A stretch of 64,000 nucleotides of DNA, from assembly GCA_019638595.1 (NCBI GenBank), contig JAHBTJ010000011.1, forward strand, positions 124,001-188,000, written 5' to 3'. Under the pieces are notes generated by a model. That model was not told the DNA's origin. It was given only the letters and a program-made list of their open reading frames with translations, and ran no database searches. Positions 17,459 to 50,111 of the stretch are shown piece after piece. Source of the DNA: Chitinophagaceae bacterium (GTDB taxonomy: Bacteria; Bacteroidota; Bacteroidia; Chitinophagales; Chitinophagaceae). The translations under genes were made by a program, and so were the position numbers. Positions within the stretch are counted from its first letter, which is position 1; every line of letters starts with the position of its first letter.

Positions 17459-17508
17459 CACTAGGGGCTCTCTCCAAATAACGTGTCTTTAATTATTATA
17501 ATAAAATG
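17459..17508 (+). promoter_or_regulatory. Leader motif shared with the FecR gene (copy A)
   Basis: CACTAGGGGCT, then TCC-AAATAA, GTGTCT and TAATTATTATAATA, align with the sequence at 24371-24420 in the same order, and both are preceded by an A-run. Copy A sits before the GH127 gene, copy B before FecR. Either a shared promoter/leader under one sigma factor or the scar of a rearrangement. Confidence 0.6.
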
Positions 17509-17577
17509 ATCATCGAAATGAGATTTGCTTGCAAGTCGCCTGGTTTTCGTCACCTGTATCTTTTTAAAAATACAAAA

Positions 17578-20079: not shown

Positions 20080-20164
20080 CAATAATGATTTATTTTGTGT
20101 GAGTTTTATTTCGTTTGAAAAAATAACAATAACTTCATGAAGCATACAACCAAAATTGCGTGTA

Positions 20165-25699: not shown

Positions 25700-28600
25700 A
25701 TGAAAAAATGCAGGAATCTGCTGCAGGATATTCCTTTGCGCCCCCTCTTTAAGTTTTTACTGCTTATGAAACTAACGATCTTGCTTCTTCTCCTTCCTTT
25801 TCTGCATGTGTCTGCCAATGGCTACGGGCAGGAAAGGTTTTCTATAAAGCTGGAGCAGGTCAATGTATCACAGGTATTCAGGAAAATACAGGAAACAAGC
25901 GATTACCGGTTCTTTTTCTTAAAAGAAGATATCAAAAAGCTGGGTAAGGTAAATGTGGATGTAAAAAATGCAACCGTACCGGAAATTATGCAACAGGTGC
26001 TGGGTAATTTCCTGGTGTATAAAATTGTCAACAATTACCTGGTGGTTATTTCGCCTAACCGGTCCGAGCTGGAAAGCCAGGTCGATATCGGGGGGAAAAT
26101 AACAGATGAAGGGGGAAACCCGCTGGAAGGGGTGAGTGTAAAAGTAAAAGGGCAGAATAAAGGGGTGACAACAATTTCTGACGGTTCTTTTTCCATAGCC
26201 GCAGACAATAAGGATGTGCTTGAAATAAGTATGGTAGGCTATGAATCAAGGGAAATTCCGGTTGCCGACGTAGCTCAGTTGGGAACAATCGTGCTGAAAG
26301 TGGCTGCTGCGGGACTTGACGAGGTAGTTGTTACCGGATATGGAACACAAAAAAAGCAAACCGTTACAGGGTCCATTGCATCCGTTAAGGGTGAACAATT
26401 AACAGCAGTTCCTGTGGCGAGCACCGCTAATAGTTTAGCCGGGCGCCTGCCGGGTTTAATTTCTTTGCAATCCAGCGGACAGCCGGGGGCTGATGCAGCA
26501 AGTTTAAGTATCCGGGGTTTTGGTGGAGCGCTTGTTATTGTAGATGGAGTAGAATCAAGTTTCAATAACATAGATGCCAATCAAATTGAATCTGTTACTA
26601 TTTTGAAAGATGGCTCTGCTTCCATTTACGGAGCGCGTGCAGGGAATGGTGTTATACTGGTTACTACCAAACGGGGAAATACAGGAAAACCGGTTATTAC
26701 GTTGAATTCCTCTGCAACAATGCAGGGCATTACAATAATGCCAAAACCCGCAAATGCAGGTCAGTATGCTGAGATGAAATCTGAAGAGTGGCTCCAATCG
26801 GGCCGTCCGGCTGACCAGGTACCTTTTACAGAAGAGCAGATTCAAAAATATTATGATGGTACAGATCCATTGTATCCCAATACAAATTGGTATCGTGAGC
26901 TAATCAGGGATTGGGCGCCTCAGCAGCAACATAATTTATCTGTAAGAGGCGGCACTAACAGGATTAAATACTATGGCTTAATAGGATTCCTGGATCAGCA
27001 AACAATCTGGAAAAAGAATGGCGGAGATTATAAAAGGTATAACATTCAATCCAATATTGATGCGGCAATTTCGGATAACCTGTCTTTTCAATTGGATATT
27101 TCTTCCATTTTTGAAAGTCGTAAATTCCCCTGGCGGCCGCAAAGCGCCGGGGCAAACACTGTATGGCAGGATTACTGGAACACATTACCCATATACCCGG
27201 CAACGTTGCCGGATCCTACTAAAATTTCTTTTGCCAACGGTGGAGGTACGGGGGGCGCTCACGTAATTACTAACAGTGAGATAGCCGGATATGATAATAC
27301 TGAATCTCAAAATTTAAGAGGATCCATTGCCTTAAATTATACCTTTAATGCTATTGAGGGGTTATCAGCCAGGGCATTCGTAAATATTGTACAGGATTAT
27401 GCTAATAATAAGCATTTTACGAGACCCATACAATTCTATACCTATGATCCTGTAGGCGATACCTATACATTAGCAGGTGCATTAGGCTCAACCGCTTCAC
27501 TTTCACAGGTTAATAGTAAGAACAGGGCGATAACCGGTCAGCTTTCACTGAATTACAACCGAACCTTTGGCCGGCACCATCGTGTAAATGCCTTAGCCCT
27601 TTATGAGGCGATTGATTATAATAGTGATTATATAAGTGTGGGTAGAATTAATTTTCTTACCCCTGCTATAGACCAGTTATTTGCCGGAAGCACTTCTGGT
27701 ATGGTAAATAATGGTTCAGCGTCTGAAATGGGAAGAAAAAGTTATGTAGGCAGGATTAATTATTCGTATAAGGAAAAGTATTTGGTGGAAACCATTCTAA
27801 GAGCTGATGCTTCTGCTAAGTTCCCTTCAGATAAGAGATGGGGCTATTTTCCCAGTGTTTCTTTTGGCTGGAGGCTGTCTCAGGAAAATTTCATGAAGGG
27901 GATAAGTGATTTAGGTGACTTAAAACTTAGAGCAAGTTATGGGGAATCAGGTAATGACGGGGTAGGTAATTTTCAGTACCTCACGGGATATCAATATGGG
28001 CTTATATACATACTGGATAATAAGGTTCAACAGGGAATTGTTTCGAGCGGTTTGGCTAATCCAAATTTAACCTGGGAAAAAATTCGTATTTATAACGCAG
28101 GGCTGGATTTTTCTTTGTGGAATAGAAAATTATATGGAGAGGGGGATATTTTCTACCGGGAGCGTACAGGGATACCTGCCACAAGGATTACTACTTTGCC
28201 CACCACATTTGGAGCGAACCTTCCTCCTGAAAATATAAATAGCTTAAATGACAGAGGGTTTGAATTAAGACTGGGCACATCGGGAATGAGTAAACACTTT
28301 ATATGGGATGTAAGCGGGAATATCTCCTGGTCAAGGGCAAAGTGGAACCATTATGAAGAGCCTGAGTATGCCGATCCGGATCAGGAAAGGATCTATAAAA
28401 AATCAGGAAGGTGGACTGATCGTAGTTACGGTTATTTATCCAATGGATTATTTACCAGCCAGGGACAGATCGACGGATTAAAATTCGACCAGGACAACCA
28501 GGGAAATGTATCACTTCGCCCCGGTGATATAGGGTATACAGATACGAATGGTGATGGTGTATTAGACTGGAAAGATCAGGTTGAGATCGGAAAAGGTACG

Positions 28601-29068
28601 GTTCCTCATTGGATGATCGGTTTCAATGGCAATATAAAATATAAAGATTTTGATTTTTCTGCATTGTTCCAGGGGGCATTCGGATACTATAACTACGTTG
28701 TATTAACACATGGAAACTTACCGCCCGCAATCGTGTATGATTTGAGGTGGACACAAGAAAATAATAACCCTAATGCTTTGGTTCCCCGATTAGGGGGAGC
28801 AGCTACTAACGGGCTGTCATCAGATTATTACTACAAAAAAGCCGGTTATATAAGGTTAAAAGCAATCGCTCTCGGCTATAATTTACCCAAACAATGGTTA
28901 GAAACCATTAAGTTAAAGCAGGCAAGGATCTATGTTGCCGGAAATAATTTGTTAACTTTTGACGGGTTGAAGAAATTCGGCACTGATCCGGAAGCGCCAT
29001 CAGGTAATTCGGGATACTATTACCCCCAGCAAAAGACAATAACCTTTGGTGTGAACATCTCTCTTTAG
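25700..29068 (+). CDS. SusC/RagA TonB-linked outer-membrane importer with STN domain (locus 1)
   Basis: The 1122-residue protein has a long signal region, then an STN domain (about residues 45-120; VFRKIQETSDYRFFFLKEDI), the carboxypeptidase-regulatory-like domain (GGKITDEGGNPLEGVSVKVK), the SusC plug hallmark (LDEVVVTGYGTQKKQTVTGS; SIRGFGGALVIVDGVE; ILKDGSASIYGARAGNGVIL) and a beta-barrel ending in ITFGVNISL. With the SusD lipoprotein it forms the glycan importer. The STN domain means it can also signal to FecR across the periplasm. Confidence 0.95.
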   Translation: MKKCRNLLQDIPLRPLFKFLLLMKLTILLLLLPFLHVSANGYGQERFSIKLEQVNVSQVFRKIQETSDYRFFFLKEDIKKLGKVNVDVKNATVPEIMQQVLGNFLVYKIVNNYLVVISPNRSELESQVDIGGKITDEGGNPLEGVSVKVKGQNKGVTTISDGSFSIAADNKDVLEISMVGYESREIPVADVAQLGTIVLKVAAAGLDEVVVTGYGTQKKQTVTGSIASVKGEQLTAVPVASTANSLAGRLPGLISLQSSGQPGADAASLSIRGFGGALVIVDGVESSFNNIDANQIESVTILKDGSASIYGARAGNGVILVTTKRGNTGKPVITLNSSATMQGITIMPKPANAGQYAEMKSEEWLQSGRPADQVPFTEEQIQKYYDGTDPLYPNTNWYRELIRDWAPQQQHNLSVRGGTNRIKYYGLIGFLDQQTIWKKNGGDYKRYNIQSNIDAAISDNLSFQLDISSIFESRKFPWRPQSAGANTVWQDYWNTLPIYPATLPDPTKISFANGGGTGGAHVITNSEIAGYDNTESQNLRGSIALNYTFNAIEGLSARAFVNIVQDYANNKHFTRPIQFYTYDPVGDTYTLAGALGSTASLSQVNSKNRAITGQLSLNYNRTFGRHHRVNALALYEAIDYNSDYISVGRINFLTPAIDQLFAGSTSGMVNNGSASEMGRKSYVGRINYSYKEKYLVETILRADASAKFPSDKRWGYFPSVSFGWRLSQENFMKGISDLGDLKLRASYGESGNDGVGNFQYLTGYQYGLIYILDNKVQQGIVSSGLANPNLTWEKIRIYNAGLDFSLWNRKLYGEGDIFYRERTGIPATRITTLPTTFGANLPPENINSLNDRGFELRLGTSGMSKHFIWDVSGNISWSRAKWNHYEEPEYADPDQERIYKKSGRWTDRSYGYLSNGLFTSQGQIDGLKFDQDNQGNVSLRPGDIGYTDTNGDGVLDWKDQVEIGKGTVPHWMIGFNGNIKYKDFDFSALFQGAFGYYNYVVLTHGNLPPAIVYDLRWTQENNNPNALVPRLGGAATNGLSSDYYYKKAGYIRLKAIALGYNLPKQWLETIKLKQARIYVAGNNLLTFDGLKKFGTDPEAPSGNSGYYYPQQKTITFGVNISL

Positions 29069-29090: not shown

Positions 29091-30887
29091 ATGAAAATAA
29101 TAATCCGAATACTTTTAATATGCTTTATAGTAAACGCATCCTGTAAAAAGGGCGTACTGGATAAAGTGCCTTTAGATATGATTTCTGATGATGTGGTGTG
29201 GAAAGATCCGGCGTTAATCAATGCCTACCTTACTCAATGCTATGCAGAAACCTACGTTTTTTGTAATGTTTCAACTGATAATTCCTGGGATAATCTTTGG
29301 AAGGGCGATGCGGGACCTGCTCCCATGTGGATTAATGAGGTAAGTGACGAATCCAGAACCGCGTGGCTCAGTGATGCATATCCGTATAAATCGGGTAATT
29401 TAAAAATTAACGGTGGTTTACTGGAGTGGTGGGAAAGCGCATATAAAGTTATCCGTAAGCTGAACCAGTTTATACAAACAGTGCCTTCATCACCGCTGGA
29501 AGATGATTTGAAAGAAAAAAGATTAGCGGAGGCAAGGTTCTTAAGAGCTTATAATTACTTCGAAATGGTAAAACGTTACGGAGGTGTTCCTTTAATTACT
29601 GAAGCCCAGGATTTGGATGCTCCTAAAGATGTATTGTATCCAAAACGGGATAAAGAGCAGGTGATATATGATTTTGTGTTGTCGGAAATTGATGCATTTT
29701 TGAATGATCTTCCTGAAACATCCAACGACCTTGGCAGACCTACCAAATATGCGGCACTGGCTTTAAAATCCAGGGCTGCTTTATATGCAGGAAGTATAGC
29801 GCAGTTTGGAACGGTGCAATTAGATGGGGTAACAGGCATTGACGCATCTGCGGCTAATGCCTATTACCAGCAGGCGTATAATGCTGCAGACCTGGTTATA
29901 CATAGCGGTAATTACTCGTTGTATAAAAAATACCCCGACGATAAAATCGAGAATTTTAAAAACCTTTTTCTTGATAAGAATAACGCGGAGCAGATTTTTG
30001 TAAAGAAACATGATGAGAATAATGGAATGGGAAATGGCGGAAATGGATGGGGGTATGATTTCTTTCAATGTCCATTACCCAATGGCTGGGGGTCGGGTAA
30101 TCAGAATGCGGTTTACCTGGAAATGGTTGAAGCGTTTGAATATATTGATGGACGTACAGGTGATCTGGACCGGAATGCCATTCAGCAGGGATTGTGGACT
30201 ACTGATCAATTGTGGAAGGATAAAGATCCGAGATTCTTCGCAACGGTGTATACTCAGAATACATTATGGAAGGGAGAACTGTTGGATTATCATAAAGGTA
30301 TACTGAAGGCTGATGGCGCCATCCAAACAGATGGGTCATACAATGGTATACTTGCTAACGGTATTCAAAACAAAACCACAGGTTTTGGTGTAATGAAATA
30401 CCTGGATGAGAGCCATGGTAACCTGATAGGATCTAACGGGGATTGGGCCACCTCTTCTACGGATTTTATTGTATTTCGTTTAGGAGAAGTATTATTGAAT
30501 TATGCGGAAGCTGCTTTATATCTTGGGAAACCTGGTGATGCATTAGAGGCAGTTAATCAAATCAGGGAGCGGGCAGGGGTTGCACCGCTTGCTTCTGTTG
30601 ACCAGGATAAAATAAGACAGGAAAGAAAAGTAGAACTTGCCTTTGAGGGGCATCGTTATTGGGACCTGCGTAGATGGAGGGTAGCCGTTACCGCACTTTC
30701 CCGGAATTTTTCCGGATTACAGTATATCCTGGATTATACCACCGGCAAATATAAATTATTGATTATTGAAAATGTTGATGGAACTGTGGCGCCACCTGCA
30801 TTTTATCCGCAAAACTATTATTTGCCAATTACACTTACCCGTACAGGTAATAATCCCAATCTGGTTGAAAATCCGGGCTATCAATAA
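29091..30887 (+). CDS. SusD/RagB glycan-binding lipoprotein (locus 1)
   Basis: The 598-residue surface lipoprotein (signal MKIIIRILLICFIVNASC, lipid-anchored Cys18) has the SusD tetratricopeptide pattern: EARFLRAYNYFEMVKRYGGV, NYAEAALYLGKPGDALEAVN and the C-terminal EGHRYWDLRRWRVA. It binds oligosaccharide at the cell surface and lids the SusC barrel. It is 22 bases after susC and 18 bases before the first GH99-like gene, so the whole set to 40421 is probably one transcript. It is longer than SusD itself (551). Confidence 0.94.
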   Translation: MKIIIRILLICFIVNASCKKGVLDKVPLDMISDDVVWKDPALINAYLTQCYAETYVFCNVSTDNSWDNLWKGDAGPAPMWINEVSDESRTAWLSDAYPYKSGNLKINGGLLEWWESAYKVIRKLNQFIQTVPSSPLEDDLKEKRLAEARFLRAYNYFEMVKRYGGVPLITEAQDLDAPKDVLYPKRDKEQVIYDFVLSEIDAFLNDLPETSNDLGRPTKYAALALKSRAALYAGSIAQFGTVQLDGVTGIDASAANAYYQQAYNAADLVIHSGNYSLYKKYPDDKIENFKNLFLDKNNAEQIFVKKHDENNGMGNGGNGWGYDFFQCPLPNGWGSGNQNAVYLEMVEAFEYIDGRTGDLDRNAIQQGLWTTDQLWKDKDPRFFATVYTQNTLWKGELLDYHKGILKADGAIQTDGSYNGILANGIQNKTTGFGVMKYLDESHGNLIGSNGDWATSSTDFIVFRLGEVLLNYAEAALYLGKPGDALEAVNQIRERAGVAPLASVDQDKIRQERKVELAFEGHRYWDLRRWRVAVTALSRNFSGLQYILDYTTGKYKLLIIENVDGTVAPPAFYPQNYYLPITLTRTGNNPNLVENPGYQ

Positions 30888-30905: not shown

Positions 30906-31967
30906 ATGATGTCTTCCATAGGTAAGGTATTATTATTTATAATGCCTACCATCTTTAGTTTTCTTGTATCGTGCAAATTATCTTCTTCCTCCTCTTACAA
31001 GCAGGAGCCTCTTGTAGGGGCTATTCGATGGGATGCCTGGGTTGGAGACTTAAACCGTGCAGGGCTGGAGGTAGAGCGTGCGCTTGGTCCGCACCAATAT
31101 CATTATCGGGCTCCATTTTATAGCAAGGAAATTTCTTATGACTCCATTCAATGCCGGGGTGCTACCCAGGACATTATGGATCAGGAAATTGCCTACGCAA
31201 AGCATGCAGGGCTCGACTACTGGGCATTCTGCTGGTATCCTCCACACAGTGGGCTGGATACTGCCAGGCAGCTTTATCTTGCCAGTAAACACCGGGATGA
31301 TATTAAATGGTGTGTAATACTGGGCACAAATCCGTTTGATTATGACATGGATGCAGTGTGGCTGGTTGATAGGTTTAAGGAAAAAAACTATCAGAAGGTG
31401 CTAAATGGAAGACCATTAGTGTATGTTTTTCCCTCTACTATCACTAAGCCACATGAACTTGCCAAACTGAGAGAGCTGGGTAAGGTAGCAGGTGTTGGGG
31501 AGCCTTATGTAGTGGTGATGGAATTTTCTGTCAGGACCGCGGTTGCAATGGCAGATAGCTTGCATGCGGATGCAATGAGTGCCTACATCAGTTGGACGGG
31601 CAGGAATGGAGAGCCTTATTACCCGGTTATTCCTTATACTGATTCTATTGGGTGGGAAGAGTATAAGGCTACAGGACGAAAAGTGGTACCCTGGGTAACT
31701 ACCGGGCACAACACAAAACCACGCATTGATAACCCGGTATCGTGGACAAAAGTTTCTTCTGATGAATGGGTAAGTGATGGAACACCAGAGCAAATTGCAA
31801 ATAACCTGGATAATGCTTTAAAGTGGATAAAGAGGAACACGTCAACTGTGGAGTCCAATGCAGTGCTGATGTATGCCTGGAATGAGTTTGATGAAGGAGG
31901 ATGGATATGCCCCACTTTGGGAAATAATACAAGTCGCTTAGATGCCATTAAAAAAATCTTAAAATAG
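30906..31967 (+). CDS. GH71/GH99-like lipoprotein 1
   Basis: The 353-residue protein has a lipoprotein signal (GKVLLFIMPTIFSFLVSC) and a predicted TIM barrel related to GH99-like domains: VGAIRWDAWVGDLNRAGLEV, LDYWAFCWYPPHSGLD and, at the C-terminus, MYAWNEFDEGGWICPT. The NE-F-D-E motif holds E327 and E330, the spacing of the GH99 catalytic pair. Known GH99 enzymes are endo-acting alpha-mannosidases or mannanases; whether this one cleaves mannose is unknown. The next gene is a close tandem copy. Confidence 0.75.
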   Translation: MMSSIGKVLLFIMPTIFSFLVSCKLSSSSSYKQEPLVGAIRWDAWVGDLNRAGLEVERALGPHQYHYRAPFYSKEISYDSIQCRGATQDIMDQEIAYAKHAGLDYWAFCWYPPHSGLDTARQLYLASKHRDDIKWCVILGTNPFDYDMDAVWLVDRFKEKNYQKVLNGRPLVYVFPSTITKPHELAKLRELGKVAGVGEPYVVVMEFSVRTAVAMADSLHADAMSAYISWTGRNGEPYYPVIPYTDSIGWEEYKATGRKVVPWVTTGHNTKPRIDNPVSWTKVSSDEWVSDGTPEQIANNLDNALKWIKRNTSTVESNAVLMYAWNEFDEGGWICPTLGNNTSRLDAIKKILK

Positions 31968-31973
31968 AATACA

Positions 31974-33053
31974 ATTAAAACATTCGCTTTTCCATATGGA
32001 ATTTTAATTGCTTTGGTGTTTTTAACACAGCATGTAACGAGTGCTGCAAGTCCGTTTAAGGAAAGAGAGAAGCCGCTTGTGGGAGCCATTCGCTGGGACG
32101 GGTGGGTAGGTGATTTAAACAGGGCCGGTTTGGAAGTAGAGCGTATATTAAGCCCGAATCAATATCATTACAGGGCCCCGTTCTTTAGTACAATAGTTAA
32201 TGATGATTCCATTCAGTGCCGCGGTACTACACAGGCTATCATGGATCAGGAAATTGCCTACGCAAAGTATGCAGGGCTCGACTACTGGGCATTCTGCTGG
32301 TACCCTCCACATAGTGGATTGGATACTGCCAGGCAGCTTTACCTTACCAGTAAACATAGAGATGATATTAATTGGTGTGTAATACTGGGTACAAATCCGT
32401 TTGATTACAATAAGGACGGGAAATGGCTGGTAGAAAGGTTTAAAGAAAGTAATTATCAAAAAGTATTGAACGGAAGACCATTGGTATACATTTTTTCGGC
32501 TACTGCTACACTGCTTTCCCAGCTTATTGAGTTGAGGAATTTAAGCAGGCTTGCGGGTGTTCCTGATCCTTATATAGTAGTGATGGAGTTTTCGATACGA
32601 AATGCTGTTGCTGCTGCAGATAGTTTACATGCAGATGCAATCAGTTGCTACGCCAGTGTATCTGATTTTGAAACGGGTGCTCCCTATAAAGGAGCGGCTT
32701 ATTCGCCCGCTGTTTCTAAAAGCGATCAGGCGGGATGGGAAAAGTATGTGGCTTCAGGGAAGAAGTTAGTTCCCTGGGTTACAACGGGCTGGAATCCTAA
32801 GCCAAGAATTGAAAGATCTGTTTTGTGGAATTCTTATTATACTTCCGATGGCTATGCAAAAGATGGTACCCCGGATCAGATTGCACAAGGTCTACAAAAT
32901 GCAATCAACTGGAGTAGGAGCAATGCAAATGCTGCTGAAGCCAATGTAATACTGATGTATGCCTGGAATGAATTTGATGAAGGGGGATGGATATGCCCGA
33001 CATTGGGAAACAATACCAGCCGGTTAGATGCAATTCGTAAAATATTAAAATAA
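31974..33053 (+). CDS. GH71/GH99-like protein 2, non-standard or lost start codon
   Basis: It is a tandem copy of the gene before, with long nearly identical nucleotide stretches (for example 31179-31320 against 32240-32381). The first standard start in frame is a GTG at 32013, which would cut a signal peptide in half. Reading from ATT at 31974 gives a full one (I/M-KTFAFPYGILIALVFLTQ, then HVTSAAS). The frame is open back to the stop of gene 1, six bases upstream. Either ATT is used as the start or an ATG was mutated. The catalytic-like pair E333/E336 (numbered from ATT) is intact in MYAWNEFDEGGWICPT. Confidence 0.65.
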   Translation: MKTFAFPYGILIALVFLTQHVTSAASPFKEREKPLVGAIRWDGWVGDLNRAGLEVERILSPNQYHYRAPFFSTIVNDDSIQCRGTTQAIMDQEIAYAKYAGLDYWAFCWYPPHSGLDTARQLYLTSKHRDDINWCVILGTNPFDYNKDGKWLVERFKESNYQKVLNGRPLVYIFSATATLLSQLIELRNLSRLAGVPDPYIVVMEFSIRNAVAAADSLHADAISCYASVSDFETGAPYKGAAYSPAVSKSDQAGWEKYVASGKKLVPWVTTGWNPKPRIERSVLWNSYYTSDGYAKDGTPDQIAQGLQNAINWSRSNANAAEANVILMYAWNEFDEGGWICPTLGNNTSRLDAIRKILK

Positions 33054-33057
33054 TAGT

Positions 33058-34275
33058 ATGAGACAATGGATAATAATTTCTTTTGTAACAATAGCACTTA
33101 TTGCAAAAAGTGACTTTGCCGACAGCCAGACATTCAATAACAAAAAGAAAGATAACTACGAAGTAGGGGTATATTATTTCCCTAACTATCACGTGGACAA
33201 ACGCAATGAAGCGCATTTTGGAAAGGGATGGACGGAATGGGAGTTGGTGAAAGCGGCAAAGCCCAGGTTTGCAAACCATGATCAGCCGAAAGTTCCTGTT
33301 TGGGGATATACAGATGAGGCAGATCCTAAGCAAATGGCAAAAAAAATTGCCGCTGCGGCATCTCATGGGATAGATGCTTTTATATTTGACTGGTATTATT
33401 ATGATGATGGGCCGTTTTTAGAAAGGGGATTAGAAGAAGGCTTTATGAAGGCAAAGAACAATCATTTACTAAAGTTCAGCCTGATGTGGGCTAACCATGA
33501 TTGGGAAGATATTCATCCGTATACGCAGGGTAAGCCGCATAAAATTTTATATCCGGGAACAATTACGCCAGCCACCTGGGATAAAATGACCGATATGATT
33601 ATCGAACGTTATTTTAAACACCCGTCTTATTGGCTCATTGACGGTGCACCCTATTTTTCCATTTATGAATTAAGTAAACTACAGGAGTCGTTTGGCAGTG
33701 TGGAAGCAACAGCAGCAGCGCTTGCCGCATTCAGAAAAAAAACAATTGCAGCCGGATTTAAAGACCTGAATCTTAATGCTGTTGTTTGGGGAAACCCGAT
33801 ACTTCCGGGAGAGAGATCCGTTACAGATCCTGCTGCTTTGGTAAAAAAGTTAGGATTTAATTCTTTCACGTCTTATGTATGGATCCATCATGTGCCTTTA
33901 AATGACCAGGTTGTTCTCTACGATATTGTGAAAAAAGCATACCTGCAATATGCAGAAAAAGCAATAGCCACATTTCCCATGCCCTATTATCCAAATGCAT
34001 CGGTGGGCTGGGATCCGTCACCGCGTACGGATCAGAATACCCCGTTTAATAATTCTGGTTATCCTTATACCAACATTATTGGAGGTAATACTCCTGAGGC
34101 TTTTAAACAGGCACTCATAGACGTAAAAAAAATGATGGATAAGCATAATCAAAAAGTCATTACTGTCAACTCATGGAATGAATGGACGGAAGGGAGCTAT
34201 CTGGAACCCGATATTGTGCATAAAATGAAATATCTCCAGGCGATTAAAACTGTATTTGGTCAGGAAAATAAATAA
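33058..34275 (+). CDS. WbsX/GH99-like secreted protein 3
   Basis: The 405-residue protein has a signal peptide (cleavage near FADSQ) and the complete WbsX-type pattern: VGVYYFPNYHVD, GWTEWELVKAAKPRF, QPKVPVWGYTDEADP, ASHGIDAFIFDWYYYDDGPF, LMWANHDWED and VNSWNEWTEGSYLEPD. The last motif carries E375 and E378 at the GH99 catalytic spacing. WbsX domains were first named from O-antigen clusters and called glycosyltransferase, but the fold and motif fit a GH99-type hydrolase. It starts four bases after gene 2 ends. Confidence 0.8.
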   Translation: MRQWIIISFVTIALIAKSDFADSQTFNNKKKDNYEVGVYYFPNYHVDKRNEAHFGKGWTEWELVKAAKPRFANHDQPKVPVWGYTDEADPKQMAKKIAAAASHGIDAFIFDWYYYDDGPFLERGLEEGFMKAKNNHLLKFSLMWANHDWEDIHPYTQGKPHKILYPGTITPATWDKMTDMIIERYFKHPSYWLIDGAPYFSIYELSKLQESFGSVEATAAALAAFRKKTIAAGFKDLNLNAVVWGNPILPGERSVTDPAALVKKLGFNSFTSYVWIHHVPLNDQVVLYDIVKKAYLQYAEKAIATFPMPYYPNASVGWDPSPRTDQNTPFNNSGYPYTNIIGGNTPEAFKQALIDVKKMMDKHNQKVITVNSWNEWTEGSYLEPDIVHKMKYLQAIKTVFGQENK

Positions 34276-34286
34276 AACGATCCGTC

Positions 34287-35786
34287 ATGAAATATGTATG
34301 CTTATCAATTATCTTTTCGGTTTTATCCTGCTTTGAATTGGCTGCACAGGAAAAAATCAACATCAAACGTAATAGTTTTCAATCAGATCAACCCATTATC
34401 AGGGCAAACCGGCCATTTCATTTCAACGTGGTAATTGAAAATCCTGAAAAACTAAAATATGAATGCCGCCTGGTTCTTCCGGATGACGTTGCCCGCCGGG
34501 GAAAGGAAACGGTTACACCTGTGCGTGATGCTGCTCAAAATCACCGGTGGGAAGTAGCATGTTTGAACCCCGGACAAAAAGATTTTGCATTGGAAGTACT
34601 TGTTGGTGGAAAGGTATTTGCACGCTCAACGATCAACCAGGTGGTGATGCCTGCCCGCAAGGTAGAAAAACCGGCTTATATTCCTGCGCCCAGACCTGCC
34701 AAAACCGATATACTGGTGGGGGTACATAACTGCCCGTTGTGGGAAACCGGGCGCCACGAACTTTGGAACCAGGTGGTACATAAACACCAGGAGCGTACAC
34801 CGGCTTTGGGGATATACTCGCAGGATAACCCTGAGATATCCGATTGGGAAACCAAATGGGCATTGGAGCATGGTATTTCCTTTTTTATTTATTGCTGGTA
34901 TCGTACCAGCCAGAATGGTCCCATTACTACCCAATTTGAAAAAAGTGTTTTTGATGAGGCGCTCTTTAAATCGAAGTACGGCGATCAGATGAAGTTCACG
35001 ATCATGTGGGAAAACCAATCTAAAGGAACATCCGGTATTACCGACGAGAAAGACCTGATGGAAAACCTGATGCCTTATTGGATTGAGAAGTTTTTTAAGC
35101 GGGATAATTATTTGAAAATCGACAATAAGCCGGTGCTCTATGTCTATCGCCCGCTCTTTATTTCAGATGATCTCGGGGGAGACGAAAAAGCAAAAGCAGC
35201 GCTCAATCTCATGCGGGAAGCCTGCAAAAAAGCAGGGTTCGACGGTTTGATCATCATGGGAGAGGAGCGTGGTTTTAATCCAACCTCACTTGAGCGATTC
35301 AAAGCCATGGGGCTGGATTATACGTTCCAGTACTGCTGGCATGTAACCAATAGTCCTTCGCCCGAAGTTGCCATTGAGAGCCAGATGGAACAGATTCGAA
35401 AGATGCAAAGCCTACACGACGTAATGCCGCAGGTGGTCACCTTTACACAGGCGTGGAGCGGATGGCAGGATGAGGGCAGCGTGTGGAAGCTCGCTCCCAA
35501 AGATTTTGAGATACTGCTCCGGAAAGGGAAAGCATTTATTGAGAAGAATTTTTCGAAAGATGAACTGGGCAGCAGGATGATCATACTGGACAACTGGAAT
35601 GAATGGAGCGAAGGGCATTACCTGGCGCCCTATCGCGAACATGGATTCGGCTACCTGGATGCTGTTCGAAGGGTATTTTCCCAAGATCCGGAAAAGCATG
35701 ATGACCTGATCCCGGAAGATATAGGAAAAGGCCCTTATAATATGCCGATGGAACTTTTTGAAAAAAAAGAAAAAAATAAAGAATGA
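34287..35786 (+). CDS. WbsX/GH99-like secreted protein 4, with N-terminal extension
   Basis: The 499-residue protein has a signal peptide (SIIFSVLSCFELAAQ), then an extra domain of about 120 residues, probably a beta-sandwich, then the GH99-like barrel: DILVGVHNCPLWETGRHELW, SFFIYCWYRTSQNGP, KFTIMWENQSKG and LDNWNEWSEGHYLAPY with E439 and E442. It ends in a Lys/Glu-rich tail. The stop overlaps the start of the next gene by four bases (ATGA). Probable glycoside hydrolase of unknown specificity. Confidence 0.75.
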   Translation: MKYVCLSIIFSVLSCFELAAQEKINIKRNSFQSDQPIIRANRPFHFNVVIENPEKLKYECRLVLPDDVARRGKETVTPVRDAAQNHRWEVACLNPGQKDFALEVLVGGKVFARSTINQVVMPARKVEKPAYIPAPRPAKTDILVGVHNCPLWETGRHELWNQVVHKHQERTPALGIYSQDNPEISDWETKWALEHGISFFIYCWYRTSQNGPITTQFEKSVFDEALFKSKYGDQMKFTIMWENQSKGTSGITDEKDLMENLMPYWIEKFFKRDNYLKIDNKPVLYVYRPLFISDDLGGDEKAKAALNLMREACKKAGFDGLIIMGEERGFNPTSLERFKAMGLDYTFQYCWHVTNSPSPEVAIESQMEQIRKMQSLHDVMPQVVTFTQAWSGWQDEGSVWKLAPKDFEILLRKGKAFIEKNFSKDELGSRMIILDNWNEWSEGHYLAPYREHGFGYLDAVRRVFSQDPEKHDDLIPEDIGKGPYNMPMELFEKKEKNKE

Positions 35787-36949
35787 AAAAGATATTGTTG
35801 ATTGCCTGTTTAGTTGTGCTTATTATAACAACCGCCAACGCTCAAAAGAAATATGATATTGCTGCATTTGTATGGCCTTCCTATCACCCCGATGACCGTG
35901 CAAAAATATTCTGGCCGGAAGGTATGGGAGAGTGGCAAACGGTAAAGTCGAACAAAGCCAAATTCCCGGGTCACCAGCAGCCCCGTTATCCCCTTTGGGG
36001 ATATGTGAATGAGGCCGATCCGTATGTAATGGAGATGCAGATATCGGCAGCTACGCGTCACGGAGTGAACGTATTTATTTATGACTGGTACTGGTACGAC
36101 GGTATGCCTTTTCTTGAAAGCTGCCTGAACGATGGATTTCTGAAAGCGGCTAATAACAGGGACATGAAGTTTTACCTGATGTGGGCCAATCATGACGTGA
36201 ATATGACGTGGGATAAACGTTTGGCCGGGCAACCCAATAACAGCCTTATATGGAAAGGCGGTGTGAACCGTAAGGAGTTTGAAAACATTTGTAAGCGGGT
36301 GATTGAAAAATATTTCAGCCAGCCGAATTATTATACAGTGGATGGCAAGCCAAGCTTTATGATCTATGAGCTGCAAACTTTTATAGACGGTATGGGCGGG
36401 TTGAAAGAAGCCAAAGCGGCATTAGACTGGTTCCGTGCCGAAGTAAAAAAAGCAGGTTTTAAAGGATTAGACTTACAGCTCACTTTACGCAATAATATGC
36501 AGGGCAATATTACCGGCATAGCAGGAGATAATATCGGCACTCAGCTCAATATTATTAATACCTTACAGTTTGACGGTGCTACCCATTACCAGTATGTCCA
36601 TTTCCTGAACATTGACCGCGACTACCCCGAAATACAGTCTGATGCCGTAAAAGAGTGGGAAAAGATTGACAAAGATCTATCTATTCCATATTACCCCCAT
36701 GTATCTGTAGGCTGGGACAATAACCCCAGGTTTGAAATGCAGGTGGGTGGTATTGTTAAAAACAATACTCCTGGCAATTTTGAGAAAGCGCTCCGCAATG
36801 CAAAAGCTTACGTAGACGCTCACCCGAAACAGGCTCCGCTGATCACTATCAACAGTTGGAACGAATGGACGGAAACGAGCTACCTGCAGCCGTGTACGAT
36901 GTTCGGGTATGGGTACCTGGAAGCGGTAAAGAAAGTATTCAAGCCCTGA
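35783..36949 (+). CDS. WbsX/GH99-like secreted protein 5
   Basis: The 388-residue protein (signal MKKILLIACLVVLIITTANA) shares the WbsX pattern with proteins 3 and 6: IAAFVWPSYHPDDRAKIFWP, GEWQTVKSNKAKFPGHQQPR, ATRHGVNVFIYDWYWYDGMP, YLMWANHDVNMTWDKR and INSWNEWTETSYLQPC. E361 and E364 are kept, but the usual Gly after the second Glu is Thr. It is translationally coupled to the gene before. Confidence 0.78.
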   Translation: MKKILLIACLVVLIITTANAQKKYDIAAFVWPSYHPDDRAKIFWPEGMGEWQTVKSNKAKFPGHQQPRYPLWGYVNEADPYVMEMQISAATRHGVNVFIYDWYWYDGMPFLESCLNDGFLKAANNRDMKFYLMWANHDVNMTWDKRLAGQPNNSLIWKGGVNRKEFENICKRVIEKYFSQPNYYTVDGKPSFMIYELQTFIDGMGGLKEAKAALDWFRAEVKKAGFKGLDLQLTLRNNMQGNITGIAGDNIGTQLNIINTLQFDGATHYQYVHFLNIDRDYPEIQSDAVKEWEKIDKDLSIPYYPHVSVGWDNNPRFEMQVGGIVKNNTPGNFEKALRNAKAYVDAHPKQAPLITINSWNEWTETSYLQPCTMFGYGYLEAVKKVFKP

Positions 36950-36978
36950 TTAATCACTGTTTACTAAAACAGTAGAAG

Positions 36979-38223
36979 ATGAATCTGATCTTTTTAAAAC
37001 TGAACAATGGTCCAATCAGGAACCCGCTTGTTTGGACTGGAACGAAATGTATTATTTTCCTTTGTACCGTTTGGGTATTGATCTTAACAAGCTGCAGATC
37101 ATCTGTGGAATCCATTGATCCGGAGCCCGAATTACCGATAGACATTCCTGAAGGGGATGTATCGGTGGCTGCGTATTATTTTCCCAACTGGGGACCTGTA
37201 GCCGAATCCGAATGGCAGCTCATTAAGTTTGCTAAACCCCGTTTTAATGGTCATCAGCAACCTAAGGTTCCGCTGTGGGGATATGAAAACGAAAATGAAC
37301 CTGCCGTGATGTCCAAAAAAATAGAGGCGGCAGCCAGTCATGGGATTGATGCCTTTATTTTCGACTGGTATTATTTTGACCAGCCCCATGGAAAATATCT
37401 TTATAAAGCGCTGGAAGAAGGTTTCCTGGGGGCAGACAATAATACAGATATTAAGTTTGCGCTCATGTGGTGCAATCATGATGTAGGTAATATGAAAGGT
37501 GCTGTAACCCCGGGCACCTTCACAGATATCATGGATTATATAATAGAGAAATATTTTAAACATCCGTCTTATTGGTTAATTGATGGCTGTCCTTATTTTT
37601 CTATCTATCAGATTCATACATTTATTGAAACCTTTGGCGGAGATGTTCAGAAAGCCGCCGAAGCTATCGGGCTGTTCCGGTCAAAAGTTAAAGCAGCCGG
37701 GTTTAAAGATCTCCATCTGAATGGTGTGTTATTTGGATTGAATAACTACATGGATGTGGCCGTTAATAGCCTGAAGGTGAACAGTACAACGTCTTATGTG
37801 TGGATCCATCATAATGCATTACCTTCTTTTCCTGCTACAAAGTACGAGGTAGCAGTTGACCAGTATTTTCGCAGCGTAAAAAATGGCGGTGGCGCAAACG
37901 GTCTGGAAAAACCAGCTACCTCTATCCCTGTTCCCTATCACCTCAATGTAAGTATGGGCTGGGATTCTTCGCCCAGGTGCGGGAATGCCAGCGACTGGAT
38001 GCAGCGGCGTGATTATCCCTATGGTGCTGTGATAACGGATAACACACCTTACCTGTTTAAAAAAGCTTTGGCAGAAGCCAAAAAAATAACAATGGAAAAA
38101 CCTCCCGGCGAGCGGATCATCACGATCAATTCATGGAACGAATGGGGGGAGGGGTCCTACCTGGAACCAGATACGCAGAATGAGATGAAATATCTCAAAG
38201 CAGTGAGGGATGTATTTAAATAA
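36979..38223 (+). CDS. WbsX/GH99-like lipoprotein 6
   Basis: The 414-residue protein has a long N-region and a lipoprotein signal (CIIFLCTVWVLILTSC), an acidic spacer (PEPELPIDIPEGD), and then the WbsX pattern: VAAYYFPNWGPV, EWQLIKFAKPRFNGHQQPKV, ASHGIDAFIFDWYYFDQPHG, LMWCNHDVGNMKG and INSWNEWGEGSYLEPD with E388 and E391. It is most like protein 3 (shared FKHPSYWLIDG.PYFSIY). It is the last of six consecutive GH99-like genes. Confidence 0.78.
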   Translation: MNLIFLKLNNGPIRNPLVWTGTKCIIFLCTVWVLILTSCRSSVESIDPEPELPIDIPEGDVSVAAYYFPNWGPVAESEWQLIKFAKPRFNGHQQPKVPLWGYENENEPAVMSKKIEAAASHGIDAFIFDWYYFDQPHGKYLYKALEEGFLGADNNTDIKFALMWCNHDVGNMKGAVTPGTFTDIMDYIIEKYFKHPSYWLIDGCPYFSIYQIHTFIETFGGDVQKAAEAIGLFRSKVKAAGFKDLHLNGVLFGLNNYMDVAVNSLKVNSTTSYVWIHHNALPSFPATKYEVAVDQYFRSVKNGGGANGLEKPATSIPVPYHLNVSMGWDSSPRCGNASDWMQRRDYPYGAVITDNTPYLFKKALAEAKKITMEKPPGERIITINSWNEWGEGSYLEPDTQNEMKYLKAVRDVFK

Positions 38224-38249: not shown

Positions 38250-40421
38250 ATGAAACTTCTATTGACAGGCTTTTGCCTGGGCATTGTTGTTTTTGCCGGC
38301 CGCACTCAAACAATCGATGAAAGCATAGCCTTCAAATTCAGGAATCCACCTTTACCATATCACATGAACCTGAATGTTCATCACGCTCCTTACGAACCTG
38401 CGAAGCAGGATATGCTGCTGGATTCTTTATTGCGTTGCGGATATGGAGGTGTGGCCACCAATGTTAACTGGACGGAGGATTATTTGAAGAATAGTGAAGC
38501 GTTTTCGTCTTTCTTTCGTTTTGCACGTTCAGCCCGGAACAAAGGCATGGAAGTATGGCTGTACGACGAAAAAGGATATCCTTCCGGAATGGCAGGCGGT
38601 CATATCCTTTCGGAACATCCGGAATGGGAATCTGAAGGGATGTTTTTTAAAGATACAGTGATAACCGGTCCTACAAAAACAGGTATACCGGTGCTTCCCG
38701 GGAAACTCATTATAGCCACTGCATTTCCCTTAAAAAACGGAGAGGTACAGTTTGAAAAAGGGGAAGACCTCCGCCATCGGCTAACCGGTGGCAGGCTTCA
38801 GTGGAATGCACCCGGTGGTACCTGGAAAATAGTGCAAATATCGTCAGGTGCGTTGTATCATGGTTTTCAGGCGGGCACTAACAGGGCAGGAGAGGTACTT
38901 CGTTATCCCAGTTTGCTGCTACCGGAAGTTACAGATCGCTTTATTGAATTAACCCATAAAAAGTACGAGGAGGTTTCGGGCAGTTTGCTTGGTGATTTAT
39001 TTTTTTCAACTTTTACAGACGAACCCTCCTCCATGGCTATGCCTTATCATAACCTGGGTTACGGAGTGTATCCATGGAAAAGTAATGTTTCTGATGCATT
39101 TAAAAAGCGGTATGGATACAACCTGCAGGACCGGCTCATTTCGCTGATGCTGGACAGCGGAAGGGAAGGAAAGAAGTTGAGGGTACAATATTTCAGTATT
39201 ATCGCGGATTTAATGAGTTCGAATTACTTTAAAAAGATCAAAGATCACTGCCGCACTCAAACTCTGAAAACAGGAGGGCACCTGTTGCTCGAAGAGTCTA
39301 TGATGGCATGTGTACCGCTGTACGGAAATATTATGTCGTGTTTCAGGCAAATGGATATTCCCGGTATTGATGTGCTGACCGTTATGCCGGATTTTACACG
39401 ACGGTACATGATCTCCGGACGGATAGCCGCTTCAGCAGCAGAGCTTGAGGGCAATTCAATGGTGATGTCTGAAATATGCCCGGTGCCTGACTACGCGATT
39501 CATTCAGGTAAGGAAGCTCCGACCCTGCATGCAAAAGGAGTTGTTAACCGCCAGTTAGTAGCAGGGGTAACCAAATTCAATAACTATATGCAGCTTCAGC
39601 ACGAAAATGATGCAGGTAAGAAGGCTTTCAATACCTATGTTGCACGCGTGAGTATGCTAATGTCAGCCGGGGTTCGTGCATCCCGGATTGCAGTGTATTA
39701 CCCGGTGGAAACCATGTGGTCGAAATACAGACCTTTCCCATCTTCATTGCGTGGCTGGGATGATGTTCAGGGCGGTGATAGTGATGCGCAGCAATTGGAT
39801 CAACTGTTCATTGGTGTGAGTAACCTGTTGTACGAAAACCAATGGGAATATTCCTATATTGACAACCAGGGAATATGTGAATCGGTAGTGGAAGATGGCA
39901 AACTTCGTCATGGTCAGTCAAGCTGGGATGTATTAATTTTGCCCGGGGTAGAAACCATTTCTGAAGAAGCTATGCAAACGATTTCAACATTTTGTAAAAA
40001 GGGAGGAAAAGTTATTGCCATTCACGCTGTTCCTGAAAATTCACTTTCTGCATTTCCTTCTTCCATTGTTAAAAAATATACCGCCGATCTGCTATCTGCA
40101 AAGACCAAGAGCCATCAAAATTTCTTTTTTAAAAAGCGTTTTGAACCTTATGGTTTGAACGATCTTTTAAGCCGTTTGCTAGAGAAAGAGATCGTGATTT
40201 TTCCAAAAGAAAATGTTTTCTGTAGTCAGAAAATAGCGGCAGGGAAAAATGCCTACCTGATCACAAATGATAATTCACATCCAAAAGAATTAGACGTAAC
40301 GATAAAAAAAGGAAAATCTTTCATGTGCTGGAATCCCCAGACAGGGGAAACGTACCCTTTTATTAAGGATAAGAAACTACGCCTCGGAGCTTTTGAAAGT
40401 ATAATAATCAAAGAGGACTAA
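38250..40421 (+). CDS. GH106-like glycosyl hydrolase, short form
   Basis: The 723-residue secreted protein (signal MKLLLTGFCLGIVVFAG) has a TIM-barrel half with family-106-like features: MLLDSLLRCGYGGVATNVNW, MEVWLYDEKGYPSGMAGGHI, WNAPGGTWKIV, FFSTFTDEPSSM and GHLLLEESMMACVPLYG. A flavodoxin/GATase-like part follows (VLILPGVETISEEAMQTIST). It lacks the C-terminal sugar-binding sandwich of the GH106 protein at 20920. It probably acts on the same glycan as that enzyme and ends locus 1. Specificity unproven. Confidence 0.7.
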   Translation: MKLLLTGFCLGIVVFAGRTQTIDESIAFKFRNPPLPYHMNLNVHHAPYEPAKQDMLLDSLLRCGYGGVATNVNWTEDYLKNSEAFSSFFRFARSARNKGMEVWLYDEKGYPSGMAGGHILSEHPEWESEGMFFKDTVITGPTKTGIPVLPGKLIIATAFPLKNGEVQFEKGEDLRHRLTGGRLQWNAPGGTWKIVQISSGALYHGFQAGTNRAGEVLRYPSLLLPEVTDRFIELTHKKYEEVSGSLLGDLFFSTFTDEPSSMAMPYHNLGYGVYPWKSNVSDAFKKRYGYNLQDRLISLMLDSGREGKKLRVQYFSIIADLMSSNYFKKIKDHCRTQTLKTGGHLLLEESMMACVPLYGNIMSCFRQMDIPGIDVLTVMPDFTRRYMISGRIAASAAELEGNSMVMSEICPVPDYAIHSGKEAPTLHAKGVVNRQLVAGVTKFNNYMQLQHENDAGKKAFNTYVARVSMLMSAGVRASRIAVYYPVETMWSKYRPFPSSLRGWDDVQGGDSDAQQLDQLFIGVSNLLYENQWEYSYIDNQGICESVVEDGKLRHGQSSWDVLILPGVETISEEAMQTISTFCKKGGKVIAIHAVPENSLSAFPSSIVKKYTADLLSAKTKSHQNFFFKKRFEPYGLNDLLSRLLEKEIVIFPKENVFCSQKIAAGKNAYLITNDNSHPKELDVTIKKGKSFMCWNPQTGETYPFIKDKKLRLGAFESIIIKED

Positions 40422-40934: not shown

Positions 40935-41540
40935 ATGCTTTATGAGTTGCTGACTGCTTACTTACATAACGAAGATAAACTATTGGAACGTATAGCCAAT
41001 AGTGATGCTGAGGCATTCACCATATTTTTTCATCAGTACAGGAATAAGGTATATTCAGTAGCGCTGAAGGTTTCCGGGGCAGGCCCGGTAGCGGAAGATG
41101 CGGTGCAGGATATTTTTATGAAAGTATGGATGAAGCGCGCTGATCTTGCGCAGGTAAATAATATCGGAGCATGGCTTAATACCATTACCTGTAATCATGT
41201 ATTTACTTTATTAAAGCGAAGAACGAACAAAGAGCGTAAAGAAATAACGCTGGAGTATCTTGAAATAGCCGATCCGGGAATGGCTGATACAGATAAAATG
41301 GTGCTAAGCAGGGAAACTGAAGCTATTCTTAAAAGTGCTATTAAAACGCTTCCTCCACAACAAGGTAAAGTATACAGATTGGTAAAGGAATATGGTTGGA
41401 AGAGAGAAGAAGTTGCCATGCGCCTGAATCTTTCGGCTGAAACAGTAAAGGTGCATCTGGCGAGAGCCATAAAGAGCATCCGCGAGTATTGCCTGATGCA
41501 TATGGATGTTGTACTCCTGTTTGTGATACTGACTTTTTAA
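40935..41540 (+). CDS. ECF sigma-70 factor, SusCD-linked type (locus 2)
   Basis: The 201-residue protein has region 2 (AFTIFFHQYRNKVYSVALKV, VAEDAVQDIFMKVWMKRADL) and region 4 (TLPPQQGKVYRLVKEYGW, REEVAMRLNLSAETVKVHLA) of ECF sigma factors. The C-terminus carries a hydrophobic tail (HMDVVLLFVILTF), common in this subgroup. It is followed after 87 bases by its FecR partner, the standard arrangement, unlike locus 1. The intergenic sequence has a GGGTAACCC element and a T-rich stretch. Confidence 0.92.
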   Translation: MLYELLTAYLHNEDKLLERIANSDAEAFTIFFHQYRNKVYSVALKVSGAGPVAEDAVQDIFMKVWMKRADLAQVNNIGAWLNTITCNHVFTLLKRRTNKERKEITLEYLEIADPGMADTDKMVLSRETEAILKSAIKTLPPQQGKVYRLVKEYGWKREEVAMRLNLSAETVKVHLARAIKSIREYCLMHMDVVLLFVILTF

Positions 41541-41627
41541 TTTTTTATTCTCCGGGTAACCCTTTTTACTTTTAAAATAGTCTTACCAGATATAAAGGAC
41601 TGCTTTTTAACAATAAAGGATGCAGAT

Positions 41628-42671
41628 ATGTCCGCTTCCAGGATCAGGTATTTATTTGATAAATATATAAAAAATGAATGTTCACCTTCTGAACATTACG
41701 AATTTTCGGAATTGGTACGTGAAAACAGGCATGACGGAGAGCTGAAGGATTTATTAAGAGAACTGGTGGTTAATACAGGGGCAGAGCATACATTTTCTGA
41801 AGGTTCGGCAAATGCCATACTGAGCTCCATATTGAGCAGCGGGGAACAGCAGCCTGTAAAAATAAGATCATTACGTAACCGTAATATGGCAAAATGGTTA
41901 TCGGTTGCGGCTGCTGCTGTTATTTTGCTTATAGTGATAGGCTATGCAGTAAAACCTGCTGGCAAAAAAGATATTATTTCCGTTACGGGAGTAGCAACAG
42001 CGCCCAACCTGGTTACTGTTCATACTTCAACGGGTGAAAGTAAAGTTGTTAAACTGCCTGACGGTACAAAAATATGGATGAATCCCTCGAGCTCACTCGA
42101 ATATCCCATGGTTTTTTCCAACCAAGAAAGGGAGGTGCGTTTGTCGGGAGAAGCATTTTTTGAAGTAGCGCATAACCCGCATAAACCGTTCATTATTCAC
42201 AGTGGTGCGCTGCAAACAAAAGTTCTGGGCACTTCTTTTAATATACAGGCCTATGATAGCCAGGAAAATATTGCAGTAACGGTAGTAACCGGGAGGGTTA
42301 AGGTAAGCAACGATAAGAGAGTAGATAGCATAGAACTGTTACCAAACCAGCGGGTTGTGTTTGACAAAAAAACAGACAAGCTCATAAAAGAAAATACATC
42401 TGACGGTGCAGCACCGGATATTTTAAAAAGGAAAGTGGGCACTTTTGTATATCGTGACGAGCCGCTGCAAAAACTGGCAAAAGATATAGAAGCCTATTTT
42501 GGAGTAAAAATACGCCTGTCAGAAGCGATCAGGCATTGCGGTGTGGTAGCAAGCTTTGAAATCACGGATAAGCCGGAGGCCATTCTCGAACTTATTGCCA
42601 TCTCAATAAACGGGACTTTAGAGGTTGAAGATAACGGCTTTACCATTTATGGAGATGCATGTCCAAAATAG
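41628..42671 (+). CDS. FecR-family anti-sigma factor (locus 2)
   Basis: The 347-residue protein has an N-terminal cytoplasmic part, one transmembrane helix (WLSVAAAAVILLIVIGYAV, about residues 89-107), the FecR signature (GESKVVKLPDGTKIWMNPSS, RLSGEAFFEVAHNPHKPF, VLGTSFNIQAY), and a C-terminal DUF4974 domain (FVYRDEPLQKLAKDIEAYFG). It should bind the sigma factor just upstream and sense the STN domain of the SusC downstream. Confidence 0.92.
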   Translation: MSASRIRYLFDKYIKNECSPSEHYEFSELVRENRHDGELKDLLRELVVNTGAEHTFSEGSANAILSSILSSGEQQPVKIRSLRNRNMAKWLSVAAAAVILLIVIGYAVKPAGKKDIISVTGVATAPNLVTVHTSTGESKVVKLPDGTKIWMNPSSSLEYPMVFSNQEREVRLSGEAFFEVAHNPHKPFIIHSGALQTKVLGTSFNIQAYDSQENIAVTVVTGRVKVSNDKRVDSIELLPNQRVVFDKKTDKLIKENTSDGAAPDILKRKVGTFVYRDEPLQKLAKDIEAYFGVKIRLSEAIRHCGVVASFEITDKPEAILELIAISINGTLEVEDNGFTIYGDACPK

Positions 42672-42752
42672 CGAAAATTTCTATCCACTAAAATCAGCAT
42701 CAATGTATACAACCAAAACACAGCTCCATCCTACTTAAGTGTGCATAAAAAA

Positions 42753-42773
42753 CCGGATACTGCTGGTATCCGG
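42753..42773 (+). terminator. Hairpin between FecR and SusC (locus 2)
   Basis: CCGGATAC pairs perfectly with GTATCCGG around TGCTG, preceded by six A. No T-run follows. Position, A-run and stem size parallel the hairpin at 25596-25618 in locus 1, suggesting a shared way to uncouple susCD from the regulatory genes. Confidence 0.55.
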
Positions 42774-42859
42774 GATATTATATGCACCGGTAAAGTAGCG
42801 CCGTAAGTTTTCGACCGCAAACGGCAGCTACCTTGATAATCATATAACATTTCAAAACT

Positions 42860-46390: not shown

Positions 46391-46442
46391 TTCAGGATAG
46401 CCGGCCGGAAAAATAAATTGTAGTTCATATAAAAAGTAACTG

Positions 46443-48140: not shown

Positions 48141-48156
48141 TTGTCCAAATTAAAAC

Positions 48157-48186
48157 ACCCGGATATGCCTCCAGGTATATCCGGGT
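48157..48186 (+). terminator. Hairpin downstream of SusD (locus 2)
   Basis: ACCCGGATAT pairs perfectly with ATATCCGGGT around a 10-base loop, 16 bases after the SusD stop. No T-run follows, so it may protect the 3' end of susCD mRNA or cause partial termination before the enzyme genes. Confidence 0.55.
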
Positions 48187-48261
48187 ATTACAGATTGTTT
48201 CATCCTTCGGACAAAGCAAGCCGTCAAAATATTGTCCGATATTCAATTATCAATTACGATT

Positions 48262-50076: not shown

Positions 50077-50111
50077 TCAGTAAATTGCTTTACATACAAA
50101 ACAAATTTATC

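Follow-up and report, generated by a model that had tools for sequence, protein, structure and literature searches.

The WbsX-type gene array and its locus

We analyzed a 64,000-nucleotide stretch of contig JAHBTJ010000011.1 from a Chitinophagaceae bacterium (positions 124,001 to 188,000), which is called the window here. Six adjacent open reading frames (ORFs), g1 to g6, are located on one strand of the window at positions 30906 to 38223, with a SusC/SusD pair upstream and a GH106-like gene downstream. They encode proteins of the WbsX type (PF14307). The array is real and conserved, and it is probably a set of hydrolases of the GH99 superfamily for a rhamnose-containing glycan. The ORFs, motif positions, and gene order agreed with the preliminary description, which had reported six adjacent WNE-x-x-E genes. 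The array and its neighbors are listed below, with the positions of the two glutamates (dyad) of the motif.

30906–31967, + strand: g1, GH99-like/WbsX, subfamily A, E327/E330, Tyr227 (PF14307, E = 1.7e-5, marginally below cut-off; structure model, tree)
31974 (or 32013)–33053, + strand: g2, GH99-like/WbsX, subfamily A, 67% identical to g1, E320/E323, or E333/E336 when numbered from the 31974 start (PF14307, E = 2.6e-6)
33058–34275, + strand: g3, GH99-like/WbsX, subfamily D, E375/E378, Tyr273 (PF14307, E = 5e-53; structure model)
34287–35786, + strand: g4, GH99-like/WbsX, subfamily B, E439/E442 (PF14307, E = 1.7e-22; tree)
35783–36949, + strand: g5, GH99-like/WbsX, subfamily C, E361/E364 (PF14307, E = 1.1e-55; phmmer match to 4ad1; tree)
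36979–38223, + strand: g6, GH99-like/WbsX, near subfamily D, E388/E391 (PF14307, E = 2.9e-40; GH99, E = 1.8e-5, below cut-off; tree)
17506–19986, + strand: GH127-type beta-L-arabinofuranosidase, possibly of the same locus (PF07944, E = 7e-90)
20156–20758, + strand: extracytoplasmic function (ECF) sigma factor of the polysaccharide utilization locus (PUL) (Pfam Sigma70_r4_2, Sigma70_r2)
20920–24231, + strand: GH106 alpha-L-rhamnosidase (PF17132, E = 3e-235)
24421–25509, + strand: FecR anti-sigma factor (PF04773)
25700–29068, + strand: SusC-like TonB-dependent transporter (Plug, CarbopepD_reg_2, STN)
29091–30887, + strand: SusD-like glycan-binding lipoprotein (PF07980, E = 5e-54)
38250–40421, + strand: divergent GH106-like protein (PF17132, E = 3e-18, the best stretch covering part of the model)

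The adjacent SusC/SusD genes, the regulator, and the genes for carbohydrate-active enzymes (CAZymes) show the organization of a SusC/SusD PUL, of which the array would form the enzyme block. The spacing from g1 to g6 is 45, 4, 11, −4, and 29 bases. The gaps of 4 to 29 bases reported previously thus do not describe the g4/g5 junction, where the genes overlap by 4 bases, or the g1/g2 junction with the standard start of g2 (45 bases; 6 bases if g2 starts at ATT). The first standard start codon of g2 is TTG at 32013, and an ATT at 31974 gives a hydrophobic N-terminus. The host genome comprises 7.06 Mb, and the nearest named relatives found are the Chitinophagaceae metagenome-assembled genomes (MAGs) L001 to L003 (93 to 99% for g3). 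The codon equivalent to the g2 ATT is the same ATT in L001 and TTG in L003 (position 8912), and we regard ATT at 31974 as the probable start. Signal-like N-termini were found in all six array proteins by a crude test, in g2 only from the ATT start, and lipobox-like N-termini were recognized by eye in g1 and g6. The array products are therefore probably secreted or lipid anchored, as previously proposed.

Of the GH106 genes said to flank the array, the upstream one at 20920 is a full match, and the downstream one at 38250 is a weak and partial match. The NCBIfam score of the latter for BT4145-type rhamnosidases was far below the cut-off. Farther downstream, a second PUL occupies positions 40935 to 60204 of the window, with sigma factor, FecR, SusC, and SusD genes, three DUF4838 genes, and a weak GH42 match. 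In this PUL, the proteins encoded at 53324 (899 amino acids [aa]) and 56308 (606 aa) had no Pfam match at an E value of 0.001.

Profile matches, predicted folds, and catalytic residues

The preliminary description had called the array genes GH99/WbsX-like, and the Pfam search upheld the WbsX part of this name. PF14307 scores were 24.9 (g1), 27.6 (g2), 181 (g3), 81 (g4), 190 (g5), and 139 bits (g6) against a gathering cut-off of 25.1. Five of the six genes passed, and g1 was narrowly below the cut-off, yet it is closely similar to g2. The GH99 profile (PF16317) was below its cut-off of 33 bits in every case (19.7 to 24.5 bits for g3 to g6; no match for g1 and g2). Among the six, only g6 gave a weak match to the GH71 profile, and an NCBIfam scan of the six found no meaningful family, the lone match (g1, E = 0.011) being a chance one. 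Comparison with canonical WbsX by hhalign showed full-length homology (100%, E = 2e-49), and we consider the homology to these proteins decisive at the level of profile comparison. The profile evidence for a relationship to GH99 is weaker, yet the dyad is in register. When a family profile (A3) was compared with PDB sequences, it matched BtGH99 4acy (1e-6) and BxGH99 (3.7e-6) with the motifs aligned, and hhalign (A2) against two GH99 proteins gave 89% and an E value of 2.5e-6, again with the dyad in register. With single sequences, phmmer matched g5 to BxGH99 4ad1 at an E value of 2.9e-4. No true GH99 gene was found in the own genome at 1e-15, and such genes were present in 2 of 296 genomes of the phylum. 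PF14307 proteins in RefSeq are often named "glycoside hydrolase family 99-like domain-containing," so the GH99 link itself is less novel.

AlphaFold2 models were built for two members, g1 and g3; g2, g4, g5, and g6 are covered by homology. The g3 model was based on 54 sequences (pLDDT, 91.7; pTM, 0.88) and the g1 model on 30 (pLDDT, 79.3; pTM, 0.81). Among the 50 best Foldseek matches of g3 in the PDB, rows 1 to 36 were GH99 endo-mannosidases and mannanases, row 37 was 5ngw, and rows 38 to 43 were GH71. For g1, rows 1 to 35 and 39 were GH99; rows 36 to 38, 40, 41, and 43 were GH71; and row 42 was a chitinase. No glycosyltransferase occurred among the 50 best matches of either model. In both models, the E-x-x-E dyad follows the last strand (residues 367 to 371 in g3 and 319 to 325 in g1), as it does behind strand beta-8 of the (beta/alpha)8 barrel in GH99. 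The models thus support the proposed GH99-like fold for two of the six proteins, with GH71 as the second-best fold. The g4 protein is about 90 residues longer than g3 before the barrel (g4 residue 168 aligned to g3 residue 76).

Each array protein contains exactly one NE-x-x-E motif, close to the C-terminus. In 23 other ORFs picked from the window (14,444 aa), NE-x-x-E occurred twice and WNE-x-x-E never, thereby indicating shared ancestry of the six rather than chance. The dyad aligned with E333/E336 of GH99 (the first Glu being residue 333 in 4ad1 chain numbering), and the GH99-like spacing noted previously is thus supported by the alignment with BxGH99. To place these residues in the family, 181 matches were reduced to 162 aligned rows including the six, leaving out those with E values of 1e-20 or higher or of 250 aa or shorter, window copies, partial loci, and identical sequences. 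The Glu/Glu pair was present in 150 of the 162, 4 were cut by contig ends, and 8 had no intact pair. Within this set, 110 rows were of the array type (the six genes and 104 others, including 15 orthologues from L001 to L003), and 44 were canonical WbsX, defined by locus and not by tree.

The position equivalent to Tyr252 of BxGH99 is tyrosine in all 110 array-type rows (6/6 and 104/104) and in none of the 44 canonical WbsX or 8 dyad-less proteins. In the hhalign alignment, Tyr273 of g3 falls on the GH99 tyrosine 81 residues ahead of the first Glu, which is the Tyr252-E333 spacing of BxGH99; the equivalence rests on hhalign, as the low-confidence phmmer alignment of g5 with 4ad1 has a gap at this stretch. 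Likewise, the position of W112 in g3 is Trp in all six array genes and 100 of the 104 others, and His in 43 of 44 canonical WbsX. Of the 104 other array-type rows, here termed exported as a class, 69 were positive in the crude export-signal test, which 42 of the 44 canonical proteins failed. Canonical WbsX proteins lie in O-antigen or capsule clusters; in four loci scanned, the neighbors were glycosyltransferase, Wzt-type, Alg14-like, sugar-nucleotidyl, or capsule-synthesis genes. The array lies outside such a biosynthesis cluster and outside the canonical clade, and its products carry signal-like N-termini.

The closest characterized folds are those of GH99 (BtGH99, BxGH99, and MANEA), from which the array differs by low identity in the fold alignments (12 to 17%) and by having no GH92 partner. 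The GH71 alpha-1,3-glucanases (AnGH71C and Agn1p) share a D/E-x-x-E dyad, but they are described as inverting enzymes with Asp as the first residue (PMC12394665), whereas this residue is Glu in all six array proteins. In addition, the hydroxyl of the GH99-type tyrosine is predicted to collide with the water molecule used for inversion by GH71 (PMC12394665). Because the array holds the GH99 set of Glu, Glu, and Tyr, a GH99-type retaining step can be argued for. Only 23 to 57 residues follow the dyad, so the array proteins have no added C-terminal domain, unlike GH71. GH195, the sulfated alpha-1,3-mannanase of Polaribacter and Ochrovirga, is likewise a GH99-related PUL enzyme (PMC13063451); it was compared only through 5ngw (named OpGH99A), which is suspected to be the Ochrovirga enzyme and matched profile A3 weakly (2.9e-4). 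PmGH99 of Prevotella melaninogenica, compared by its description, is a single-barrel GH71/99-like PUL enzyme with a DYGE motif in place of WNE-x-x-E (PMC13421300).

Subfamilies, selection, and recurrence

Next, we examined the relationships of the six genes in a quick maximum-likelihood tree of 91 of the 162 rows, with SH-aLRT support only. The rows were the six genes, 34 array-locus rows, the 8 dyad-less proteins, 18 of the 44 canonical WbsX, and 25 of the 67 others picked randomly. The six genes fall in about four deep subfamilies, A to D, and canonical WbsX forms a separate clade. Support was 100 for g1 with g2, 100 for g4, 99 for g5, 89 for g3 and g6 with their relatives, and 100 for both the canonical and the dyad-less clades. 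Recent tandem duplication was ruled out except for g1/g2, since the other pairs are 21 to 47% identical over their aligned parts and lie in deep clades. The dN/dS ratios against L003 were 0.05 to 0.18 in all six genes, which indicates purifying selection and rules out decayed genes.

All six genes recur in L003 and g3 to g6 in L002, and related sets of four and three occur at loci L021 and L040. In L144, from another genus (G030), one gene each of kinds A, B, C, and D follows SusC/SusD. PF14307 was detected in 30 of 195 genomes of the same family and 50 of 395 genomes of the phylum, and a single genome had as many as 13 matches; these counts are lower bounds because the search misses genes of the g1/g2 type. 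The latter are rare and were found in 3 of the 395 phylum genomes, including the own genome. Among the matches listed for these genomes, no other genome had as many consecutive PF14307 genes.

Eight PF14307-type proteins from the same bacterial family (L100 and L102 to L108) are dyad-less. The first Glu and the Tyr are missing from all eight, the second Glu is kept in four, and a SusD-like gene adjoins each of them. They are probably surface glycan-binding proteins derived from the enzyme fold.

Gene neighborhoods and the putative function of the array

The linkage of g3 relatives to other CAZyme genes was investigated in 80 loci gathered with g3 as the query. Of 38 loci, 13 had GH106 genes in the flanks retrieved, compared with 1.95 expected under uniform placement; for all 80 loci, the number was 19. 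The 38 loci were mostly long-flanked and were chosen after initial counts were known, and the enrichment and its P value (0/200,000) are rough, since uniform placement ignores CAZyme clustering and detection relied on a single-seed profile. In four genomes, a GH106 gene was 0.9 kb or less from the PF14307 gene. By contrast, 1 of 40 genomes had GH92 at a distance of up to about 21 kb from a PF14307 gene (0.62 expected); the pairs were chosen by eye from lists before the distances were measured. Most of these genomes contain GH106 (36/40) and GH78 (39/40). GH78 occurred in 10 of the 80 loci (raw count), as did sulfatases (single-seed profile). Individual neighborhoods held GH78 and a weak GH43 match (L144); GH78, a sulfatase, and GH106 (L040); a GDSL esterase and three sulfatases (L021); and GH20 and a beta-helix protein (L004, the locus of Mucilaginibacter pineti 47C3B in which a homologue of g3 follows SusC/SusD). 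On contig C25 of genome G595 (13314 to 44923), seven or more GH106 genes stand in a row behind a PF14307 gene. The array in the window is itself surrounded by the full GH106 gene, the divergent GH106-like gene, and GH127. The preliminary description had suggested a mannose- or rhamnose-rich glycan; the rhamnose part was strengthened by the GH106 genes near g3 relatives, and the mannose part found hardly any GH92 behind it. Because GH106 is enriched near g3 relatives and GH92 is not, a rhamnose-containing glycan is favored over mannan as the target.

We therefore consider it likely that the six proteins are GH99-like retaining alpha-glycosidases that cut different linkages of one rhamnose-containing glycan. 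The products would be exported members of the GH99/GH71 superfamily with a (beta/alpha)8-barrel fold, and probably endo-acting retaining enzymes working like GH99. Alpha-D-mannose and alpha-L-rhamnose are both 1,2-trans alpha sugars, for which a GH99-type mechanism is suited, and such a mechanism would thus fit both sugars alike. As in the anhydro-sugar mechanism described for GH99 (PMC12394665), the first Glu would assist the attack of the 2-hydroxyl on C1, yielding a 1,2-anhydro sugar as the intermediate, with the second Glu as the acid/base. The four subfamilies probably cleave different linkages or branches of one polysaccharide, and the GH106 enzymes may trim the released products.

Several observations weigh against this explanation. 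Canonical WbsX, a full-length homologue found amid glycosyltransferase and transporter genes, carries the same WNE-x-x-E dyad in 44 of 44 proteins. NE-x-x-E alone therefore cannot separate a hydrolase from WbsX; as a proof of hydrolase activity, the motif is ruled out, and the tyrosine position discriminates better. The TM-scores to GH99 are modest (0.47 to 0.59 by query length), and other family members made up most of the alignment behind the g1 model. On their own, g1 and g2 matched neither GH99 (2%) nor any PDB sequence significantly at the profile level, and g4 gave no GH99 match by phmmer against the PDB. Because all loci were gathered as g3 relatives, the GH106 linkage speaks for the kind of g3 and not for the other subfamilies. 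A literature search, with most subscription papers outside its scope, found no PF14307 enzyme with measured activity. PmGH99 is reported to be inactive on yeast cells and to show only low activity on a crude Streptococcus mutans biofilm substrate (PMC13421300). Finally, array-type relatives occur in two biosynthesis clusters, which indicates that the type also occurs outside PULs. These are g1-like genes with a signal-like N-terminus (L142, 4219 to 5304; L143, 9686 to 10762), in clusters for polysaccharide biosynthesis in which canonical WbsX is also present, and their products are perhaps hydrolases that trim the exopolysaccharide (EPS).

The same family of enzymes could instead serve an alpha-mannan or another non-rhamnose glycan, or follow a GH71-like inverting route. 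The nearest characterized fold relatives act on alpha-mannan, and for GH195 an endo-alpha-1,3-mannanase activity toward sulfated diatom mannan is reported (PMC13063451). Some relatives (L021 and L040) have sulfatase genes beside them, and the own genome has ten GH92 genes elsewhere. None of these ten lies in the window, however, the enriched exo-enzyme is GH106, and the Glu at the first catalytic position disfavors inversion; we consider this explanation unlikely. It is less likely still that some members, above all g1 and g2, are surface glycan-binding proteins derived from enzymes. The dyad-less relatives adjoin SusD-like genes as binding proteins do, but in the window, both Glu residues, the Tyr, and the Trp are present in all six genes; the dyad-less proteins have lost at least the first Glu and the Tyr.

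The Pfam name WbsX would imply that some or all of the proteins are glycosyltransferases or transglycosylases, as would the full-length homology to canonical WbsX and the array-type relatives in the two biosynthesis clusters. In Burkholderia gladioli, selection with an LPS-binding phage is reported to yield wbsX mutants, the enzyme role being predicted there (PMC13391952). The SusC/SusD context, Tyr and Trp positions unlike those of canonical WbsX, and fold matches free of glycosyltransferases all point away from a transferase. Nucleotide sugars are not known to be present outside the cytoplasm, and the signal-like N-termini of the six proteins therefore also count against this explanation, which we regard as very improbable.

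Beyond the GH99-like hydrolases favored here, a broader proposal is possible but rather doubtful: array-type PF14307 proteins may represent undescribed glycoside hydrolase families, four of them in this array, that form a secreted endo-alpha-L-rhamnanase kit acting via 1,2-anhydro-rhamnose, with WbsX being hydrolase derived rather than an ordinary glycosyltransferase. PF14307 is a widespread family named as a transferase, for which the literature searched contained no measured activity. The difference between Trp/Tyr/Glu/Glu and His/non-Tyr/Glu/Glu provides a simple rule for choosing which proteins to assay for hydrolase activity, and six related enzymes, which probably act on one glycan, are available in the array. 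Phage tailspikes dominate the endorhamnosidase literature among the matches listed. If any of the array enzymes cuts a rhamnan internally, it would add an endo-acting step to the breakdown of rhamnose polymers outside phage tailspikes.

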